From Streptomyces drozdowiczii (GTDB lineage Bacteria; Actinomycetota; Actinomycetes; Streptomycetales; Streptomycetaceae): a stretch of DNA of 64,000 bases. Of the stretch, positions 55,883 to 64,000 are shown piece by piece. The stretch is taken from contig NZ_CP098740.1 of NCBI RefSeq assembly GCF_026167665.1, positions 1 to 64,000 on the forward strand, in the 5' to 3' direction. The position numbers and the translations under genes are program-made. Each line of letters starts with the position of its first letter. The stretch's first letter is position 1. The notes below the pieces were generated by a model. It saw only the letters and a list, made by a program, of their open reading frames with translations. It ran no database searches and was not told where the DNA came from.

Positions 55883-56103
55883 GGTCGGTTGGCCAGGGTA
55901 AGTGTCGCTCACCGGCACCTCGTCGCGTCGTCCCGGTCGCCGGCACGGACGTCTGGGGCGGACCGGGCAAGGGAGTGGGCGTAGCTGCGGTCAGCGTGTG
56001 CCAGCGAGACGCGGGGAAGGGCCAGCCGCACGCCAAGGCTGGCCGATACCATTGATCACCACTTCGGCGTGTGCGTGCCGTTGATCGCCAGGGGGAAGTA
56101 TCT

Positions 56104-57726
56104 GTGTCCAGCCGTGTTCAGTCGATGCGACAAGGTGATCCGCAGCGTGTCGGCCCGTACCGGGTGGTGGGCCGGCTCGGATCAGGCGGCATGGGCATTG
56201 TGTATGCCGCGCTCAGCGCCGCCGGGGAGCGGATGGCCGTCAAGGTCGTGCATCCGGCGCAGGCCTCAGACGACGAGTTCCGTGCTCGGTTCCGGCGGGA
56301 GGTGCAACTGTCCCGGCGGGTTACGGGCCCTTGTCTGGTTCCAGTGGTCGATGCCGATCCCGATGCACCCGCTCCGTGGCTTGCCACTGCTTTCATACCC
56401 GGTCCCACCCTCGACCAACATGTGGCCGCCGACGGGGCTCTGGCCGGGGCCCGCCTGTATGCCTTGGCCGCTGGTACCGCAGCAGCACTCGCCGCGGTCC
56501 ACCAAGCGGGCGTCACGCATCGTGATGTGAAGCCCCAGAATGTCGTCCTGGCGGCTTCGGGCCCGATGGTGCTGGACTTCGGAATCGCTCATGCCTTCGA
56601 CGGGACTTCCGTCACCCGCACTGGGGTGATGACGGGAACGCCGGGCTGGATCAGCCCTGAGCATTACCGCACCGGCGCGGTCGGGCCGGAGGGTGATGTG
56701 TTCGCGTGGGGCGCCCTGGTCGCGTACGCGGCCACAGGACGTCTGCCCTTCGGGAGCGGCGCTGCCGACGCTGTTGCCTTTCGTGTCCTGTCTGCCGAGC
56801 CCGATCTCGGCGGGATGGGCGATGATCTGCGCCAGCTGGTGGAGAGGGCTCTGTCGAAGGAGCCATCCGTCCGACCAGCGGCTCCTGAACTCGCGCAATT
56901 GTGTGGTGGTTTGCTTGCCAAGCAGACTACGGCCGTCGCCGGTCCCGCTGGACTGCCTCAGCCGACACTGATAGCCGACCTGGTCGGTCGCAGCTGGGAT
57001 CTGCCGTCCGACGAACCGATCTGGCCGGGCCCACCGAAGCGCACCAGCCGCACTGGCCTGTACCTTGCGGTCGTCGCCGCTGCTGCCCTCGTAGGCAGCC
57101 TCGGCGGTATCCTCGCTGCCACGCTGTCATCCACCACGGCGCGGGAACCAGCCATATCGGCCGACGGTCAGAAAGGCCCATCTGTCGACCTCACATCGGC
57201 CGCTCAGCACTCCGCAAGCTCTGCACCCGGCCCCGCACGCACCGCCTCCCCCGTGCCGTCACCCTCTACTCCGAGCCCGCGTACTTCCGCTGTCCCCTCC
57301 CCCGCGTACACCCGCGGTGACAGCACGCAGCCCACTGTTGATGAGTGGGCGGCCGCCCGGGTGGCGGCCACACAGGCGGAAAAGGCCGCCGCACAGCGTC
57401 TGCGCGAAGGCGCGGCTTCCATTCTCCAAGGGCAGCAGTACATGGGCGGCCAGGTGACCGTCACGTTCAACCCATCGGCGCAGACGATGTTCATCACCTT
57501 TGGCCCTGGTATCTACCCCGACGGGGAGAGCTACCTGGACGATGCCGCCTGGACGGACGTCGTCCGTAGTCTGATGTTCGGCAGCTGCTCAGAGGCCCAG
57601 CAGGACTTTCTCGACGACATTACCTGGCCCTACGGTCGAGCCGCAGTCGTCTACCGCGAGTCGATGGCCAACCCCATCATCGCCAACTTCCGAGAGGTCA
57701 CCCACACCGACAGCTGCCGCGTATAG
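56104..57726 (+). CDS. Receptor-type Ser/Thr protein kinase (PknB-like)
   Basis: The protein has 540 aa from GTG 56104, five bases after GGGGGAAG. The kinase domain (~15-270) is complete: GRLGSGGMGIVY loop, the VAIK-equivalent Lys in MAVKVV (Lys47), VTHRDVKPQNVVL with the catalytic Asp (141), MVLDFGIAH (DFG), TGTPGWISPEHY, and DVFAWGALVAYAATG. One membrane helix (LYLAVVAAAALVGSLGGILA) separates it from a ~190-aa extracellular part: a Ser/Pro-rich stalk and a small globular domain with two cysteines (FGSCSEAQQDF and the terminal DSCRV). There are no PASTA repeats, so the ligand is not peptidoglycan by that route. Confidence 0.9.
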   Translation: MSSRVQSMRQGDPQRVGPYRVVGRLGSGGMGIVYAALSAAGERMAVKVVHPAQASDDEFRARFRREVQLSRRVTGPCLVPVVDADPDAPAPWLATAFIPGPTLDQHVAADGALAGARLYALAAGTAAALAAVHQAGVTHRDVKPQNVVLAASGPMVLDFGIAHAFDGTSVTRTGVMTGTPGWISPEHYRTGAVGPEGDVFAWGALVAYAATGRLPFGSGAADAVAFRVLSAEPDLGGMGDDLRQLVERALSKEPSVRPAAPELAQLCGGLLAKQTTAVAGPAGLPQPTLIADLVGRSWDLPSDEPIWPGPPKRTSRTGLYLAVVAAAALVGSLGGILAATLSSTTAREPAISADGQKGPSVDLTSAAQHSASSAPGPARTASPVPSPSTPSPRTSAVPSPAYTRGDSTQPTVDEWAAARVAATQAEKAAAQRLREGAASILQGQQYMGGQVTVTFNPSAQTMFITFGPGIYPDGESYLDDAAWTDVVRSLMFGSCSEAQQDFLDDITWPYGRAAVVYRESMANPIIANFREVTHTDSCRV

Positions 57727-57888
57727 CCGCACGCGACACCGTGAGCTTCCCGTGCAGGGCAGACCTAGCTCAGCTTGAAGACATGAGCCACTGAATGCTG
57801 GGACTGTGGCCACCGACGCTGTGGTGGATGAGCTACCGAACAAACCTGGTTCGGACTGAGAGTGCCTGGCCCTCTACAAAGGGACGGA

Positions 57889-59775
57889 TCAGCAGCGGTC
57901 TTCCTGCAGTTTCAGCATCTCAAAGAAGTCTCCGGCCTGGTCGATCAGCTCGTCGTACGTGCCCGTCTCCGAGATCCGGCCATGGTCGAGGACGATGATC
58001 CGGTCGGCGAGGCGGGTGTTGGCCAGCCGGTGCGTGATGAACACCGTGGCCCGGCCCGCGGCGAGGGCCTTGAGCCGGGTGTAGATCCGGTGTTCGGCGC
58101 GGGCGTCGAGTGCGGCGGTCGGCTCGTCCATCACGAGGACGGGGGCGTCGCGGTGGAAGGCTCGGGCGACCGCGACGCGTTGCCACTGCCCGCCTGACAG
58201 GTCGTGTCCGCCCCACCAGGAGCGAGCCAGCGACGTGTCCAGCCCGTGTGGGAGGGCGGCGATGACGCTGTCGGCGCCGGCTGCCTCGGCGGCGGCGTGT
58301 ACGGCGGTGTCGCCTTCAGGGCGGCGCTGGCCGAGGGTGATGTTCTCGCGGGCGGCCAGCGGCCAGCGGGTGTAGTCCTGCGGGACGAGCGCGACCTGGG
58401 CAAGCACTTTGGCCGGGTCGGCGTCCGCCAGGTCCACACCGTCCCACCGCACAGACCCGCTGGTTGGGAGGAACAGGCCGGTCAGGAGGCGAGCGAGAGT
58501 GCTCTTGCCGGCGCCGTTCTCGCCCACGAGGGCGATGACCTCGCCGCGCTTGAGGTCCAGATCGATGCCGTCGAGCGCGGGCGCGTTGGCACCGGGATAC
58601 GTGAAGGAGACGCCCTCGGCGGTGATGACCTGCGGCCCGTCCTCGGCGACGGTCGCGGTGCCGCGCCGGGTCGTCCACGGCTTGGCCACGGCCAGGAAAC
58701 GGGCCCAGTCGTCCAGGGACAGCGAGGTACGGAACAGCCGAGCCCCCGCCCGCACCGTCGTGGCGAGCGCCGCTCCCGAGGTCCGCACCGCCAAAGCGGC
58801 GGTCCCCGCGACCGCGAGCTCCATGCGGCCACTCGCCACCAGGAGCACGAGCACGGCCCACGTGACGACGGTGCCCACCGCGGTGAGCGCGTCACCGACG
58901 CCTTGGACCACCAGGGCCTGCCGGGTCGCCTTGAGCTGTTCGGCCTCCAGGCGGCCAGAGACGATCCGGTACTGCCGGATCAGGAACCCGGCCATGGTGC
59001 CCGCCCGGACCTCGTCGGCCGTGTTCCGCTCGGTGGTGTAGGAGCGGAACACGTTGCGCAGCCGGCAGTCGGCGAGGTTGCGGTGGTGGGCGGCGTGCTC
59101 GATCCGCGCCCCGCGCACGGCGCCCCACGCACACGGCACGACGGAGAGGACCAGCAGAGGCAGCATCACCGGGTGCAGCACGGTGACGACGGTCGCCGCG
59201 GCGGCCATCTGGGCTGCGGCGGAGGTCAGCAGTTGGGCGTCGAGGATGAGGTCGCCGGTCTTCTCCGCGCCGTCGGAGCCGGCGGCGTGGGCGTCCTCGA
59301 AGTCCGGGTCCTCGTACGCGACGAGTTCGGCGGCGGTGGCGGCGGTGATGACCTGGAGGTCGGCTTCGCGTACGGCTTTGGGCGCGAGCCGGGCCGCGGC
59401 CGCGCGGGCGACAGCGTCGAGCAGGTAGCGCCCGGAGGTGGCGACGGCGATGACCACCACGGCGGTCAGGTTGTCGCGCAGAGAGGAGAGGATGTCGCCG
59501 CCGGTGAACACGGCGGCCAGCACGCGGGTGGTGGCTGCGAGCGCGGTCGCGGTGAGCGCGGCGGAGCCGATCTGGCAGGCGAGCAGGGCCAGGACGGCGC
59601 GGTGGTCGGTGTGCCAGCCGAGCCGGGCCGCCTCGGCGAGGGTGCGGGGCAGCCGGCGCGCTATCGCCCATGTGGACAGGTTGGCGCTCGCTTCGAAGTG
59701 CCGGTCGGAGGCCAGGCGCATCATGGGCGGCTGGCCCGCGCCGGATACGGACGGCGAAGATACAGAAGAACTCAC
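57889..59775 (-). CDS. Lasso-peptide ABC exporter
   Basis: The protein has about 628 aa. The start is uncertain: GTG 59773-59775 lies next to GGGGG, and ATGs at 59724 and 59721 are alternatives. It is a half-transporter: an N-terminal six-helix domain (LTATALAATTRVLAAVFTGG, TWAVLVLLVASGRMELAVAG) fused to a nucleotide-binding domain with Walker A GENGAGKST, signature LSGGQWQRVAVARAF and Walker B PVLVMDEPTAALDARAE. It is the last gene of the lasso operon. Such D proteins export the mature lasso peptide and give self-immunity. Confidence 0.88.
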   Translation of the reverse strand: MSSSVSSPSVSGAGQPPMMRLASDRHFEASANLSTWAIARRLPRTLAEAARLGWHTDHRAVLALLACQIGSAALTATALAATTRVLAAVFTGGDILSSLRDNLTAVVVIAVATSGRYLLDAVARAAAARLAPKAVREADLQVITAATAAELVAYEDPDFEDAHAAGSDGAEKTGDLILDAQLLTSAAAQMAAAATVVTVLHPVMLPLLVLSVVPCAWGAVRGARIEHAAHHRNLADCRLRNVFRSYTTERNTADEVRAGTMAGFLIRQYRIVSGRLEAEQLKATRQALVVQGVGDALTAVGTVVTWAVLVLLVASGRMELAVAGTAALAVRTSGAALATTVRAGARLFRTSLSLDDWARFLAVAKPWTTRRGTATVAEDGPQVITAEGVSFTYPGANAPALDGIDLDLKRGEVIALVGENGAGKSTLARLLTGLFLPTSGSVRWDGVDLADADPAKVLAQVALVPQDYTRWPLAARENITLGQRRPEGDTAVHAAAEAAGADSVIAALPHGLDTSLARSWWGGHDLSGGQWQRVAVARAFHRDAPVLVMDEPTAALDARAEHRIYTRLKALAAGRATVFITHRLANTRLADRIIVLDHGRISETGTYDELIDQAGDFFEMLKLQEDRC

Positions 59776-59958
59776 GCCCCCATGAGGGAACCGGACCGGG
59801 AGGGCGGGCAACGGGATTGTTCCGCACGCTGCCCATCGGCCCTGGTCGCCCCGACCTGCCGTCAGCTTCACTGCTCGACATTCGCTCGTTCGAGTGATGC
59901 CGTGGTCCGGGGCGGGGAGGCATGGGCCAGCCCCGGACCAGGCAGCTCTGGCGGCCGT

Positions 59959-60375
59959 CTACGGCACGGCGAGGACCGGCATCCACGGCCGGTCGATGGC
60001 GTCGCCTATGTCCCGGCCGACCGCGCCGCCTGGGACCTCGGCCCAGGCGTGCGCTGCGTCAGGGAGGAACCGCGCGCCGAGCACCCAGCGGGCCCGGCGG
60101 CCGGTCAGCGCGGTCGCCAGGACGGTGGCGAGGCTGATCTCCATGCAGGCGATGCGGCCCGGCCACCAGGAGGGGATCACCGCAAGCACCGCCGTGTAGA
60201 GGGCTTCGATCCGGGCGTGGCGCGCGTACGGCAGGCCGCGCAGGAGCCGTACGGCGGCGATCTGCCAGCGCAGCGGCCACCGGCTCATCGCCAGGGACAG
60301 GGCGAGCGCTACGGCCGCGACGAGGCGGTCGAGCCTCGGCGCGGTGGGCCGGGCGGTGGGGACCATGACTGTCAC
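59959..60375 (-). CDS. Lasso-peptide leader peptidase (B2, transglutaminase-like)
   Basis: The protein has 138 aa from GTG 60373-60375, which overlaps the restored stop of the B1 gene (GTGA) and lies eight bases after AGAGGGG; a GTG three codons upstream is also open. The transglutaminase-like fold of lasso B2 proteins is evident: WPLRWQIAAVRLLRGLPYAR, GRIACMEISLATVLA with the catalytic Cys, DAAHAWAEVPGG with the catalytic His, and an Asp shortly after. It removes the precursor leader after B1 delivers it. Confidence 0.9.
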   Translation of the reverse strand: MTVMVPTARPTAPRLDRLVAAVALALSLAMSRWPLRWQIAAVRLLRGLPYARHARIEALYTAVLAVIPSWWPGRIACMEISLATVLATALTGRRARWVLGARFLPDAAHAWAEVPGGAVGRDIGDAIDRPWMPVLAVP

Positions 60376-60664
60376 CGCCACCACCCCTCTTTCGCCGGGC
60401 CGGGCGGGCGGTGTCGACGAGCACGCCGGTAACCAGGAGCTCGTTGATGAAAGCGGCGATCCGCTCGCCGACCACTGTCGGGTTCTGGCCGGTGGGGACG
60501 GCGATCTCGTCGGCGAGCCCGGCGGTGCCGCCGCGGACGGTGATGGCGTGCCAGATCTTCGCGGCGTCCGGATCGAGCATGAGCCAACTCCCGCGCTTGA
60601 TGTCGAGCACCGCCGTGCCGTACGGGCCTGTGGCGTGATGGACTTGAGGGGCGCAGGTCAGCAC
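60372..60664 (-). CDS. Lasso-peptide RRE protein (B1, PqqD-like), probable single-base frameshift at the end
   Basis: From GTG 60662-60664, overlapping the cyclase stop, the frame encodes a PqqD-like RRE: GPYGTAVLDIKRGSWLMLDP, DAAKIWHAITVRGG, VVGERIAAFINELLVTGVLV. As printed the frame runs on through B2 in a non-coding register. One extra base in the G/C triplet runs at 60397-60408 would end it at KEGWWR and the TGA at 60372-60374, giving 97 aa and the normal coupling with B2. The domain binds the leader of the precursor and presents it to B2 and the cyclase. Confidence 0.87.
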
Positions 60665-62406
60665 GCTGTCACCTCCTTGGCGGCCGTCTGGCTGGTGAGC
60701 CACCAGCAGGTCACGATCAGCTGGTGCAGGTCGGCGATCACTGTGGCGCTCTGTCCTCGGGCCGCCTGCGCGAGCGCCACGCGTACCGCGGCGTGGTCGA
60801 TGAGCCCTCCGGCCGCGAGCGGGCTCGACATGATCAGTTTGTCGAGCAGGCCCTGGTGCCGGGCGAGTCCGGCGATGCGCTGGGCTGTGAACGATCCTTT
60901 CGAGCGGCGCGAGGTCAGCCAGTCTGGGAGCTGTGGTAGCGCGGCCTGCAGCAGGGGCTTGTAGGAGACCAGCCCGCGCCGGGCAAGCGCCGGCACAGCG
61001 AACGCGGCCCGGACGACCTCGTTGTCCAGGTACGGGTACACCGGCCTCACAACAAGCTTCTCGGCGTACGGGGTCCAGCCGCGGGCGGAGGCGCCGCTCG
61101 ATCGCAGGGCGGCCCACTGGTCGAACTCGTCCGCCAATTCCGGCTGCCGCCGGTGCCGGGCGGCCTGCCGCAGCAGCACGGCGACCTGGTGACGCCCGGC
61201 CGCCGTGAGCCACGATGCCCCGGCCCCGAGACGGCACCACGACCAGCCCGCCACCGTGGCCTGCGTGGTGACGGGCCCGCGCTCCAGGGCCTCGGCCGCG
61301 CGTACCAGGGAACCGCTGTGGCCCAGGGCAGCCGCATTTTTTAGGGCCTTCCAGTACGGGCCAGGGGCGGTATTGCGCAGCCGGGCGAACGCGACGACCT
61401 GCCGGTGGGCTTCGCGGCGCCGGCCGTCTTGGAGGAGGCGGACCCAGCAGGAGCTGGAGGCGTCGAGCACGATGTCCCCGCCGTGCCCGGTCAGGTGCAG
61501 CGGCAGCCCTCGTACGGGGTGCAGGTAGGCGGTGTCCATGGCGTACATCGCGGCCTCCAGCACCGGCTCCGCCCCGGTCGGCTGCCCGGGCGGGAAGCCG
61601 AAGGGCAGCTGCTCGGCGCTGCCGGTGGCGAGCGTATGCCGGGCGGCGGTGTGTTCGGCGACGCGGGCGGCGAACGCCATGTCCTCGCCGCTGGTGTAGC
61701 CGTCGGTGTACGTCACCGCGTGCACGGTCCCGACACCGGCGGCGAGGACGACGGCCGCCGAAGAGTCAAGCCCGCCGGACAGGTCCGCGCCCACCACCGC
61801 GCCGGCGGCGCGGACGCGGTGCTGGACGGCGTCGGTGAACGCTCGGCCGAACCGCTCGGCGCCCTCGCGCAGCTCGTAGGCGGGTTCAACACCCGCGATG
61901 TCGACGAGCTGCGGCGGCGCCCCGGGTGCGAGCAGCAGCCCGGACCCGCCGGGCACCTGCGGGATCTGCTCGTACGTGCTGTGGTGCGGCCAGTGGTGTT
62001 CCCCCGCCGCGAGCCGGGCCGCCAGCAACGGCAGGTCCGGCACGAGCGGGCGCCCCAGCAGACCCGGTTCGCTGGCCCACGCCGTCCCCTCCTGATGCGG
62101 CGTGTAGTAGACGGCTCGGATCCCGGCAAGGTCTCCGGACACGAAGTGCTGCCGCCCGTCGCTCGCGACCACCCAGTACGAGCCCGGCCAGCGGGTCAGC
62201 TCCGCCCACCGGCCCGCCCGCACAGCCGGAAGCAGGCCACGCAGATCCTGCTCGGTGACCGGGCTGTCGCCCACGACCGCGAGCGCCACCAGCCCCTCGC
62301 AGGCCGCACGTACTCGCGCGGCCGGAGCCCGGCGCACACCCCCGAGCCCTACGATCTCGATCCCGCCTCCGGCGGCAGTACCGCCGGCCATCCACTCCCG
62401 TTCCAT
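60658..62406 (-). CDS. Lasso-peptide cyclase (asparagine-synthetase-like C protein)
   Basis: The protein has 582 aa from ATG 62404-62406, seven bases after GGGGAGG. An N-terminal degenerate glutaminase-like domain lacks a catalytic Cys2. The C-terminal ATP-pyrophosphatase has VVGADLSGGLDSSAAVVLAA (SGGLDSS at ~210-216), HAVTYTDGYTSGEDMAFAAR and LPLHLTGHGGDIVLDASSS. It adenylates the side-chain carboxylate of the ring Asp or Glu in the core and joins it to the N-terminal Gly. It overlaps B1 by seven bases and lies 82 bp after the precursor stop. Confidence 0.92.
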   Translation of the reverse strand: MEREWMAGGTAAGGGIEIVGLGGVRRAPAARVRAACEGLVALAVVGDSPVTEQDLRGLLPAVRAGRWAELTRWPGSYWVVASDGRQHFVSGDLAGIRAVYYTPHQEGTAWASEPGLLGRPLVPDLPLLAARLAAGEHHWPHHSTYEQIPQVPGGSGLLLAPGAPPQLVDIAGVEPAYELREGAERFGRAFTDAVQHRVRAAGAVVGADLSGGLDSSAAVVLAAGVGTVHAVTYTDGYTSGEDMAFAARVAEHTAARHTLATGSAEQLPFGFPPGQPTGAEPVLEAAMYAMDTAYLHPVRGLPLHLTGHGGDIVLDASSSCWVRLLQDGRRREAHRQVVAFARLRNTAPGPYWKALKNAAALGHSGSLVRAAEALERGPVTTQATVAGWSWCRLGAGASWLTAAGRHQVAVLLRQAARHRRQPELADEFDQWAALRSSGASARGWTPYAEKLVVRPVYPYLDNEVVRAAFAVPALARRGLVSYKPLLQAALPQLPDWLTSRRSKGSFTAQRIAGLARHQGLLDKLIMSSPLAAGGLIDHAAVRVALAQAARGQSATVIADLHQLIVTCWWLTSQTAAKEVTAC

Positions 62407-62434
62407 CTGTTCGCCTCCCCTTCAGACGCGCCCA

Positions 62435-62461
62435 GGGGCCGGCCGTCGTACGGCCGGCCCC
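62435..62461 (-). terminator. Strong hairpin between lasso precursor and cyclase genes
   Basis: GGGGCCGGCCGT (62435-62446), the loop CGT, and ACGGCCGGCCCC (62450-62461) form a perfect 12-bp stem in the 82-bp gap between precursor stop and cyclase start. Such a hairpin probably acts as a partial terminator or RNA-stabilising structure that keeps precursor mRNA in excess over the processing genes. Confidence 0.68.
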
Positions 62462-62488
62462 CGGAGTGCTCGGTGGTGTCCGGGCTGG

Positions 62489-62659
62489 TCAGCCCTCGAA
62501 GTAGTTGGACTTGTCCGAGTCGTTGAACACCTGGCGGCCCAGGGTGAGGATCGCCACCGGGTGGGCGCTGAGCTGTGGCGCGAAGCTGCCGGTGCGCGGC
62601 GCTGCGGCGGGGGCGTCCTCGATTGCGGGGTTCGTGGCGTGGATGGTCTGCTCGGTCAT
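62489..62659 (-). CDS. Lasso-peptide precursor (A)
   Basis: A 56-aa gene from ATG 62657-62659, seven bases after AGGAGG. The 40-residue leader ends in AHPVAILTL, with Thr at -2, the position recognised by B2 proteins. The predicted core is GRQVFNDSDKSNYFEG (codons 41-56). It starts with Gly, as lasso cores usually do, and has Asp at positions 7 and 9, so a Gly1-Asp9 (nine-membered) or Gly1-Asp7 macrolactam ring with a 7- or 9-residue tail is possible. There are no cysteines, so it would be a class II lasso peptide. It is followed by cyclase, B1, B2 and exporter genes. I do not recognise this core among the lasso peptides I know. Confidence 0.85.
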   Translation of the reverse strand: MTEQTIHATNPAIEDAPAAAPRTGSFAPQLSAHPVAILTLGRQVFNDSDKSNYFEG

Positions 62660-62797
62660 GACGCGGCCTCCTGTGTCGCGGTGGATGCTTCGGTGGTGCT
62701 GCCTCTATGTCACCGCGATAGAAGAGGTGTTCCCAGAGACGGAGATGGGGACTTACTGGGAGCGGATCTGGGAGGAAGATGGGACGCGCTTGGGACG
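62660..62797 (-). promoter_or_regulatory. Presumed promoter region of the lasso operon
   Basis: These 138 bp lie between the M20 peptidase stop and the precursor start, both on the minus strand. The AGGAGG ribosome site is at 62667-62672. A promoter is expected here because the precursor is normally transcribed strongly, but I could not pick out convincing -10 and -35 boxes. Confidence 0.4.
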
Positions 62798-63987
62798 TCA
62801 GCCTCCGAGAAGGTCGAGGACAGCCCTGTGGTAGACGGCGTACGCCGTGGGGAGTTCGGCGAGGTGAGCGCGTTCGTCGATGCCGTGCAGGCCCTCGTAC
62901 GGCACCCCGAAACCGGCGGTGGCCGCGATGCCCTCCCCGGCGAGCAGGTTGCCGATGTTCGACGGGCCCGCCGTCTTCGCCCGCACCATCAGCCCGGCCG
63001 CCGTGGCGGCGTCGAGGAGGGCGGCGGCGGGCTGTTCGTCCTCGGTGAGACGGAACGGCGGCCAGGCAGCGACCGGGGTGACCTCGGTGGGTGCCGGTGC
63101 GGGCAGCTCCGCGTCGAGTTCGGCGACGGCCTTGCGCACGAGTGTCTCGGCGTCGTGTGCGTCGAAGCCGGGGGTGGTGCGGACGTCCACGTTGATATCG
63201 ACCCGGTCGGGGGTGACGGAGAAGCCCTGGCCGCCGTGGAAGGCGGTGACCGACAGCTTCGGCGCCAGCGGAAACCCCGATCCGTCGTCCACGCCGGGCA
63301 GTTCGGCGGTGTCCAGGAGCCGTACGAGGTGGGCGCCGCGGGTGATCGCGCCGATGACGGTCTTGCTGGAGCCGGAGTGCCCGGAGGGGCGTGCACGGTG
63401 ATCGTTGCCCGCCACAGGCCGCGGCCACCAACCACGACCTCGTCCATGCCGGGGTAGCCGATCATCACCCCGGCAGGGCGGGCCGCAGCGGGGTCGGTGA
63501 GGTAGGCGCGGGCGCCGCCGAAGCCGCCGGTGTGCTCATCCACGTCCAGGAGCACCGCGAGCCCGCCGGCCAGCTCGGCGGCGCGGGGGGCGAGGTCGGC
63601 GGCGATGTGGCAGAACATCGCGGCGGCGAGCTTGGAGTCCGCTGCGCCCCGGCCGCGCAGCCAGCCGTCCACGACGTCGCCGCAGGCCGGCGGGAACGAC
63701 CAGGCGGACTCGTCGCCGTACGGGGCGGTGTCCACGCACGCGTCCAGCGTCCACCACGGCCCCGGACGGCTGCCGGGAACCTCCACCAAAAGCCCCACCA
63801 GGGCGCCTGCCGCTTCGTGAAGGCGCCGGTGCGGCAGCGCGCGGGCGGCGAGCCAGTCCTCCAGCACCGTCAGGACGGGCCCGTAGTCGTCGATCCCCGC
63901 CCGGCTCGGACGGCGGATCAGTTCGCTCGCCAGCTCGACCACGGACGCCGTTCGAACCTGGGCCGCCTGCTGAAGATCCTCGATCAC
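62798..63987 (-). pseudogene. M20-family metallopeptidase/deacylase, frameshifted
   Basis: From GTG 63985-63987 (GGGAG upstream) the frame encodes the N-terminal catalytic part: WWTLDACVDTAPYGDE, GRGAADSKLAAAMFCHIAAD, VLLDVDEHTGGFGGARAYLT. It breaks at four Gs (63386-63389) after ATITVHA. One extra base restores PSGHSGSSKTVIGAITRGAH, the dimerisation domain (VDINVDVRTTPGFDAHDAET) and the end of the catalytic domain to 62798, 396 aa in all. The HxD/D/EE metal-site pattern of ArgE/DapE/CPG2 relatives is recognisable, although the first His is not obvious (TLDACVD). It precedes the lasso genes but need not belong to them. Confidence 0.78.
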
Positions 63988-64000
63988 GCTTCTCCCTCGC

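Follow-up and report, generated by a model that had tools for sequence, protein, structure and literature searches.

The first 64,000 bases of the Streptomyces drozdowiczii contig NZ_CP098740.1, a single contig of 7.39 Mb, constitute the window analysed here and carry on their minus strand an operon for a lasso peptide, a ribosomally synthesized and post-translationally modified peptide (RiPP). The lasso operon is genuine and its peptide is new so far as the searches reach. The 16-residue core is nearly frozen among relatives whose cyclases have diverged to 40% identity, and the operon is preceded by an XRE-type regulator, a homologue of M20 peptidases and an array of short boxes spaced by about one DNA turn. 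Comparison of these sequences makes it rather probable that the operon stands under the control of the regulator and its box array, that its product is a Gly1-Asp9 lasso with a conserved partner, and that the upstream cassette is not tied to lasso chemistry.

The precursor gene A (62489-62659, minus strand) comprises 56 codons, with AGGAGG placed 7 bases ahead of the ATG, and encodes a 40-residue leader ending in Thr-Leu (...AILTL) followed by the core GRQVFNDSDKSNYFEG, as a sequence-only reading of this DNA had proposed. Thr at position -2, a small first core residue and acidic residues within positions 7-9 are those of a lasso precursor, and neither the locus DNA nor the DNA upstream of the window cyclase revealed a second or better candidate. 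Among 22 scored candidates, 18 other database proteins match 79-100% of its length; those with a named source belong to Streptomyces and Actinacidiphila records, and where a label is given it is 'hypothetical protein' or 'uncharacterized protein'. Across the 19 aligned precursors most leader positions vary, whereas Thr39, Gly41, Arg42, Gln43, Asn46, Asp47, Ser48, Asp49, Lys50, Tyr53, Phe54 and Glu55 never change. In 23 distinct DNA sequences the proportion of nonsynonymous differences (pN) is 0.115 in the core versus 0.373 in the last 15 leader residues, the corresponding synonymous values (pS) being 0.284 and 0.389. These homologues and the constraint on the core at the protein level, compared with the leader, argue that A is a real gene and not a chance reading frame. 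A precursor search of 394 genomes of the family returned nine genomes with E-values of 1.9e-7 or better; the next match lies at 0.0045, and the remaining ones among the 283 listed at E<=1 are at chance level. Of the nine, only G110 (L044:9803-10177 and L102:1232-3236) shows no cyclase in the DNA examined around its precursors. It has two precursors of the family, an XRE-M20 pair some 25 kb from them and, at L155, part of another XRE-M20 copy.

The order precursor, cyclase, RiPP recognition element (RRE), peptidase and exporter, with its strand and coordinates, was also read correctly from the sequence alone. The operon comprises, besides A and all on the minus strand, (i) the asparagine-synthetase-type cyclase C of 582 residues (60658-62406; PF00733, Asn_synthase, 83.5 bits); (ii) the PqqD-like RRE protein B1 (60388-60663), itself lacking a Pfam match and 72% identical to the B1 of locus L031, which passes the PqqD model (24.9 bits, cut-off 23.4); (iii) the transglutaminase-like leader peptidase B2 of 141 residues (59959-60384; PF13471; NF033537, 39.2 bits, cut-off 33); and (iv) the ABC exporter D (57889-59871; PF00005), conserved in relatives. 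The components of a lasso locus are thus present, B1 being assigned through its identity to L031 and having its end out of frame: in its last few codons it departs from the frame of nine relatives and reads on to 60059.

The conservation of the core becomes apparent when relatives are collected by the cyclase only. In this search 72 of 392 genomes of the genus match at E<=1e-20; 30 loci were taken, with their upstream DNA read and genes called by a codon-score script, and 27 of them have a convincing precursor, the others being L060, L067 (a broken cyclase) and L077. Fourteen loci, the window included, contain an unbroken cyclase at least 40% identical to that of the window; 13 of these have a precursor, and all 13 carry the NDSDKxxYFE core, which occurs in none of the 14 precursor-bearing loci below 40% identity. 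These distant cores keep Gly1, Asp9 and Tyr13, as exemplified by GKYAEDSADKGRYFE and GSAGNNNADDTQYWQ. Core residues shared with the window amount to 16 of 16 in L034 (cyclase identity 48%), 15 in L045 (46%), 15 in L046 (40%) and 13 in L037 (40%), while only 8, 6, 5 and 5, respectively, of the last 15 leader residues are kept; the lowest core identity is 11 of 16, in L089 (cyclase 52%). The core had seemed unfamiliar in the sequence-only reading, and five stretches of its letters are indeed absent from all main texts of the literature searched; judged by these alignments, it nevertheless belongs to a strongly conserved family and is no singleton. Broken remnants of a close cyclase relative are found at L093:8876-9710.

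Nine loci (L034, L037, L044, L045, L046, L086, L090, L091 and L092) contain a second precursor whose core varies freely. It lies at L034:8180-8356, L045:10115-10267, L086:11093-11221, L090:2598-2732, L091:8584-8730 and L046:9740-9862, that of L046 having Glu at position 9. Since frozen and free peptides stand side by side, the freezing of the GRQ-type core would not reflect a limit of the enzymes. The near-invariance would be better explained by a mature peptide that meets a single conserved partner, for example as a signal or through one target, than by a diversifying toxin.

The acceptor of the macrolactam, earlier left between Asp7 and Asp9, now leans clearly to the latter. All 42 distinct cores begin with Gly, and all have an acidic residue 9 (Asp in 39, Glu in 3). 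Of the 22 cores with an acidic residue 7, 19 are of the GRQ type; outside this type residue 7 is acidic in 3 of 23, compared with 23 of 23 for residue 9. Because position 9 is always acidic and position 7 seldom so outside the GRQ type, a Gly1-Asp9 ring is most likely on this alignment, and a Gly1-Asp7 ring is not favoured. The earlier statement that the core has no bulky aromatic residue before Tyr13 is mistaken, residue 5 being Phe.

Upstream of A, the gap between the M20 gene and the precursor (62660-62797, minus strand) contains the box array, then GTCCCCA, TCTCTGGGAAC and GTGACATAGAGG, and finally the ribosome-binding site. In aligned gaps, TCCCA-like boxes recur one DNA turn apart; in the window they form an operator-like array of four TNCYA boxes at 11, 11 and 12 bp (62757-62795, minus strand), conserved across loci, a pattern that occurs once in the window and in 0 of 100 shuffles, having been derived from the same alignment on which the boxes are counted. 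The exact array has 18 matches in 77 loci (1,317,680 bases); 17 of them lie within -5 to +11 bp of the M20 stop, and the eighteenth is found 135 bp ahead of the orphan precursor of L127, 6.7 kb from the M20 gene. By a looser count, M20 is followed by at least two phased boxes in 25 of the 35 XRE-bearing loci and in none of 20 loci lacking XRE (20 of 22, L112 and L142 being left out). Likewise, two phased boxes precede the precursor in none of eight precursor loci lacking an adjacent XRE; the L147 row is void since that locus starts too close to its precursor, and the same precursor in L127 has the array. The ten XRE loci without two phased boxes comprise L086, L090, L139, L140, L143 and L156, whose regulators share less than 70% identity with the one in L032, as joint divergence of regulator and operator would predict, and L102, L122, L127 and L151, with regulators 76-93% identical, which do not fit such joint divergence.

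In the closer relatives the operon opens with the XRE-type regulator followed by the M20 homologue, and the layout by sequence is regulator, then M20-A-C-B1-B2-D; the window's contig has the regulator at about 64004-64801, immediately past the end of the window. The M20 gene is open in 14 aligned relatives and split over two frames in the window, where the first part (62989-63987, minus strand; PF01546) matches relatives to about residue 203 of L031 and the second (62798-63415, minus strand; PF07687) corresponds to intact copies in relatives. The predicted model of the regulator, built on 58 sequences (pLDDT 87, pTM 0.66), comprises a Cro/CI-type helix-turn-helix (HTH) and a domain of the phospholipase D (PLD) fold, as in TrmB-like sensor regulators; the catalytic PLD motif HxK(x)4D is found in none of the 58 aligned members.

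A search with M20 at E<=1e-50 matched 44 of 392 genomes, and the surroundings of all 44 were read, with L031 standing for G679 (the M20 of L031, used as the query, matches G679 at 100%). XRE stands beside M20 in 22 genomes and is missing in the other 22, 16 of which share a single conserved chromosomal location for M20, next to an OYE-type reductase. RiPP genes directly follow the XRE-M20 pair in 15 of the 22 loci: (i) lasso operons of the window kind in 12, including L083, which has lost B1 and B2; (ii) a graspetide set in L125 (TIGR04187, 397 bits, cut-off 350; TIGR04188, 430 bits, cut-off 380); (iii) a radical SAM/SPASM gene with PCMT in L122; and (iv) YcaO and TfuA in L138. At L125:4567-9222 XRE-M20 and the array are followed directly by the graspetide genes, and the DNA in between still resembles the start of the lasso precursor, possibly the trace of a cluster swap. 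Three loci are not counted: L127, where the pair sits between another intact lasso operon upstream, which we presume to be citrulassin-like, and an orphan GRQ precursor; L123, with YcaO/TfuA about 4 kb on and on the other strand; and L128, whose radical SAM protein is MoaA-like. In L139, L140, L141 and L143 no RiPP enzyme was recognised near the pair. RiPP-enzyme probes found matches in 18 of the 22 XRE-bearing loci and in none of the 22 others, the probes being biased, as they were partly drawn from XRE loci and some match themselves; in the loci without XRE the Pfam scan covered nine neighbour genes. In a second sample, XRE was present in 15 of 394 family genomes, and eight loci were newly examined: L149 precedes a class I lanthipeptide set (Lant_dehydr, LANC and PCMT), L153 has only a PCMT gene beside XRE, and no RiPP enzyme was recognised beside XRE in L150, L151, L152, L154, L155 and L156. 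The link between XRE-M20 and RiPP genes is therefore strong near the window's relatives and loose further off. From their recurrence ahead of lasso, graspetide, YcaO/TfuA and lanthipeptide genes, we read XRE, M20 and the boxes as a movable regulatory cassette for RiPP operons.

Several observations weigh against this picture. The core is not wholly invariant, as L043, found by its precursor, has NDADK in place of NDSDK. Eight GRQ-type lasso loci (L035, L037, L045, L046, L088, L089, L091 and L092) show neither XRE nor M20 and have a divergent regulator of about 460 residues in their place, so that the lasso peptide does not need the pair; of the seven tested for the array, none has it. As a candidate peptide-pheromone receptor, this alternative regulator shows weak, sub-cut-off TPR matches in one of four scanned members and no convincing solved relative. 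Firm RiPP genes accompany XRE in just one of the eight loci of the second sample. L126, with M20 and neither XRE nor a lasso operon, displays by eye a decayed-looking array. The M20 and B1 frames of the window are both broken, within 4 kb. Cassette and array may, in addition, have been partly carried together by common descent.

The last point leads to the alternative that survives best, namely an ordinary albusnodin-kind lasso operon in which XRE and M20 are hitchhikers moving with the operon and the array reflects shared ancestry of the DNA segment. Of the 18 exact array matches, 17 adjoin an M20 stop, and array and M20 may travel as one segment, L125 retains its precursor-like letters behind the array and ahead of the graspetide genes, and the scarcity of firm RiPP neighbours in the second sample (1 of 8) agrees with this account. 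On the other hand, L138, with an M20 68% identical, keeps boxes and spacing while the flanking letters diverge, the array of L127 stayed with the precursor and not with M20, and phased boxes are missing from all 20 M20 loci lacking XRE; we regard this alternative as unlikely. Decay of the locus in this strain, with the M20 and B1-end breaks real and no peptide made, appears quite doubtful: the two breaks speak for it, but A, C, B2 and D, like the body of B1, keep open frames and are conserved, and two breaks within 4 kb of one assembly also fit base-calling errors. The breaks also qualify the earlier description of the locus as complete, since all five lasso genes are present, yet B1 runs off frame, M20 is split and the span then given stops short of the boxes, M20 and the regulator. 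A role for M20 in tailoring the lasso peptide or in immunity to it, such as that of a deacylase or carboxypeptidase with Lys10 or the tail as substrate, XRE being its local regulator, would suit the closest PDB relatives of M20 by sequence, the deacylating DapE and ArgE types, and the acetylation of Lys10 in albusnodin (PMC9266682, in the text available). Such a role is improbable given that M20 is not seen in the eight GRQ-core loci with the other regulator, lies beside graspetide, YcaO and lanthipeptide genes, occupies a conserved XRE-free location in 16 of the 44 genomes having M20, and has an altered metal site in 52 of 52 homologues.

Under the favoured reading of a regulated operon with a separable cassette, the XRE regulator would occupy adjacent boxes along the same face of the helix and switch the operon in response to a small ligand bound in its PLD-fold domain, a ligand that the M20 homologue might make, break or bind. 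B1 and B2 would then take off the leader after Thr-Leu, and the cyclase would join Gly1 to Asp9, giving a nine-residue ring, a short loop from Lys10 and a plug of Tyr13/Phe14; the predicted 16-residue lasso, with an expected mass of 1843.81, would be exported by D.

Lasso peptides are mined as diversifying antibiotics, and a mature sequence nearly frozen with cyclases down to 40% identity suggests a different job, making this family well placed to show what lasso peptides contribute to the strains that produce them. A broader extension can be offered only tentatively, the balance being against it: Streptomyces may share a portable control unit, consisting of an XRE-PLD sensor, a reshaped ligand-handling M20 and a helically phased array, among otherwise unrelated RiPP operons, so that the same type of signal would govern lasso, graspetide, YcaO/TfuA and lanthipeptide operons alike, and GRQxFNDSDKxNYFE may be a conserved signal and not an antibiotic. 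If the upstream unit is truly a regulatory cassette, it would provide a means of activating silent RiPP clusters from several classes and a marker for new ones. No description of a unit of XRE, M20 and phased array was found in the available text of the literature searched, including PMC6511847, PMC12224297, PMC13097080, PMC13352647 and PMC8498205, supplements and most subscription papers lying outside that search.

Between A and C, a GC-rich hairpin of 15 bp (62432-62464, minus strand; -39.2 kcal/mol over 46 nt, z -4.8) may act as an attenuator, so that precursor transcripts would outnumber those of the enzymes. Folding of the 70 nt that follow the precursor stop gives -32 kcal/mol or lower in 20 of 23 loci, calculated without shuffles; the exceptions are L034, where the second precursor follows, and the orphans L044 and L147. 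Rfam gave no match in 56000-64000, and consensus searches of 62300-62900 found neither a sigma-70-like promoter nor an intrinsic terminator, a result that says little in a Streptomyces. A Ser/Thr protein kinase gene (56071-57726, plus strand) adjoins the exporter end of the operon, and a second such kinase, 48% identical over 280 residues, occurs at L038:11688-13415.

Comparison with known systems highlights partial resemblances. PCMT-type methyltransferases are linked to aspartimide lasso peptides; distant relatives with FDTADD cores adjoin such genes (L096 by Pfam, L098 and L101 by eye) and are possibly aspartimide-forming, whereas no PCMT-type gene was seen in the window operon. The M20 homologue shares fold family and sequence match with the DapE/ArgE deacylases and retains an Asp ligand, the base Glu and the final His; nevertheless, the canonical di-metal ligands are not preserved, Cys, His and Tyr replacing what we take to be, in numbering, ligand identity and role, His67, Glu135 and Glu163 of DapE in 52 of 52 homologues, of which 33 neighbour XRE or lasso genes and 19 do not. 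The regulator resembles TrmB and TrmBL2 in fusing a DNA-binding domain to a PLD-fold domain, which in TrmB is termed sugar-binding (title of 2f5t), but its HTH is of the Cro/CI (XRE) kind, the identity is 6-10% and HxK(x)4D is lacking.

The closest system is that of albusnodin from Streptomyces albus, whose core also has Asp9. The albusnodin/ikarugamycin-type model NF033561 is the best NCBIfam model for the window cyclase, which scores 221 bits against a cut-off of 300; no protein of the genome exceeds this cut-off. Like albusnodin, the window precursor lacks the leader motif YxxP, having FAPQL instead, with F-A-P invariant in 19 of 19 precursors, and has Lys at core position 10, equally invariant (19 of 19). 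In the accessible parts of these sources, albusnodin is described as alone among actinobacterial lasso leaders in being without YxxP (PMC6784204), and Lys10 as its acetylated residue (PMC9266682). Acetylation by a neighbouring enzyme was rejected for the window, as none of 77 PF00583 matches in the genome (E<=0.01), the only acetyltransferase family searched, is closer than about 80 kb, the nearest lying at 142 kb. The window locus combines a cyclase related to the albusnodin model though scoring short of it, a leader without YxxP and Lys10 with a different core and, upstream, with XRE, M20 and the box array that set it apart.

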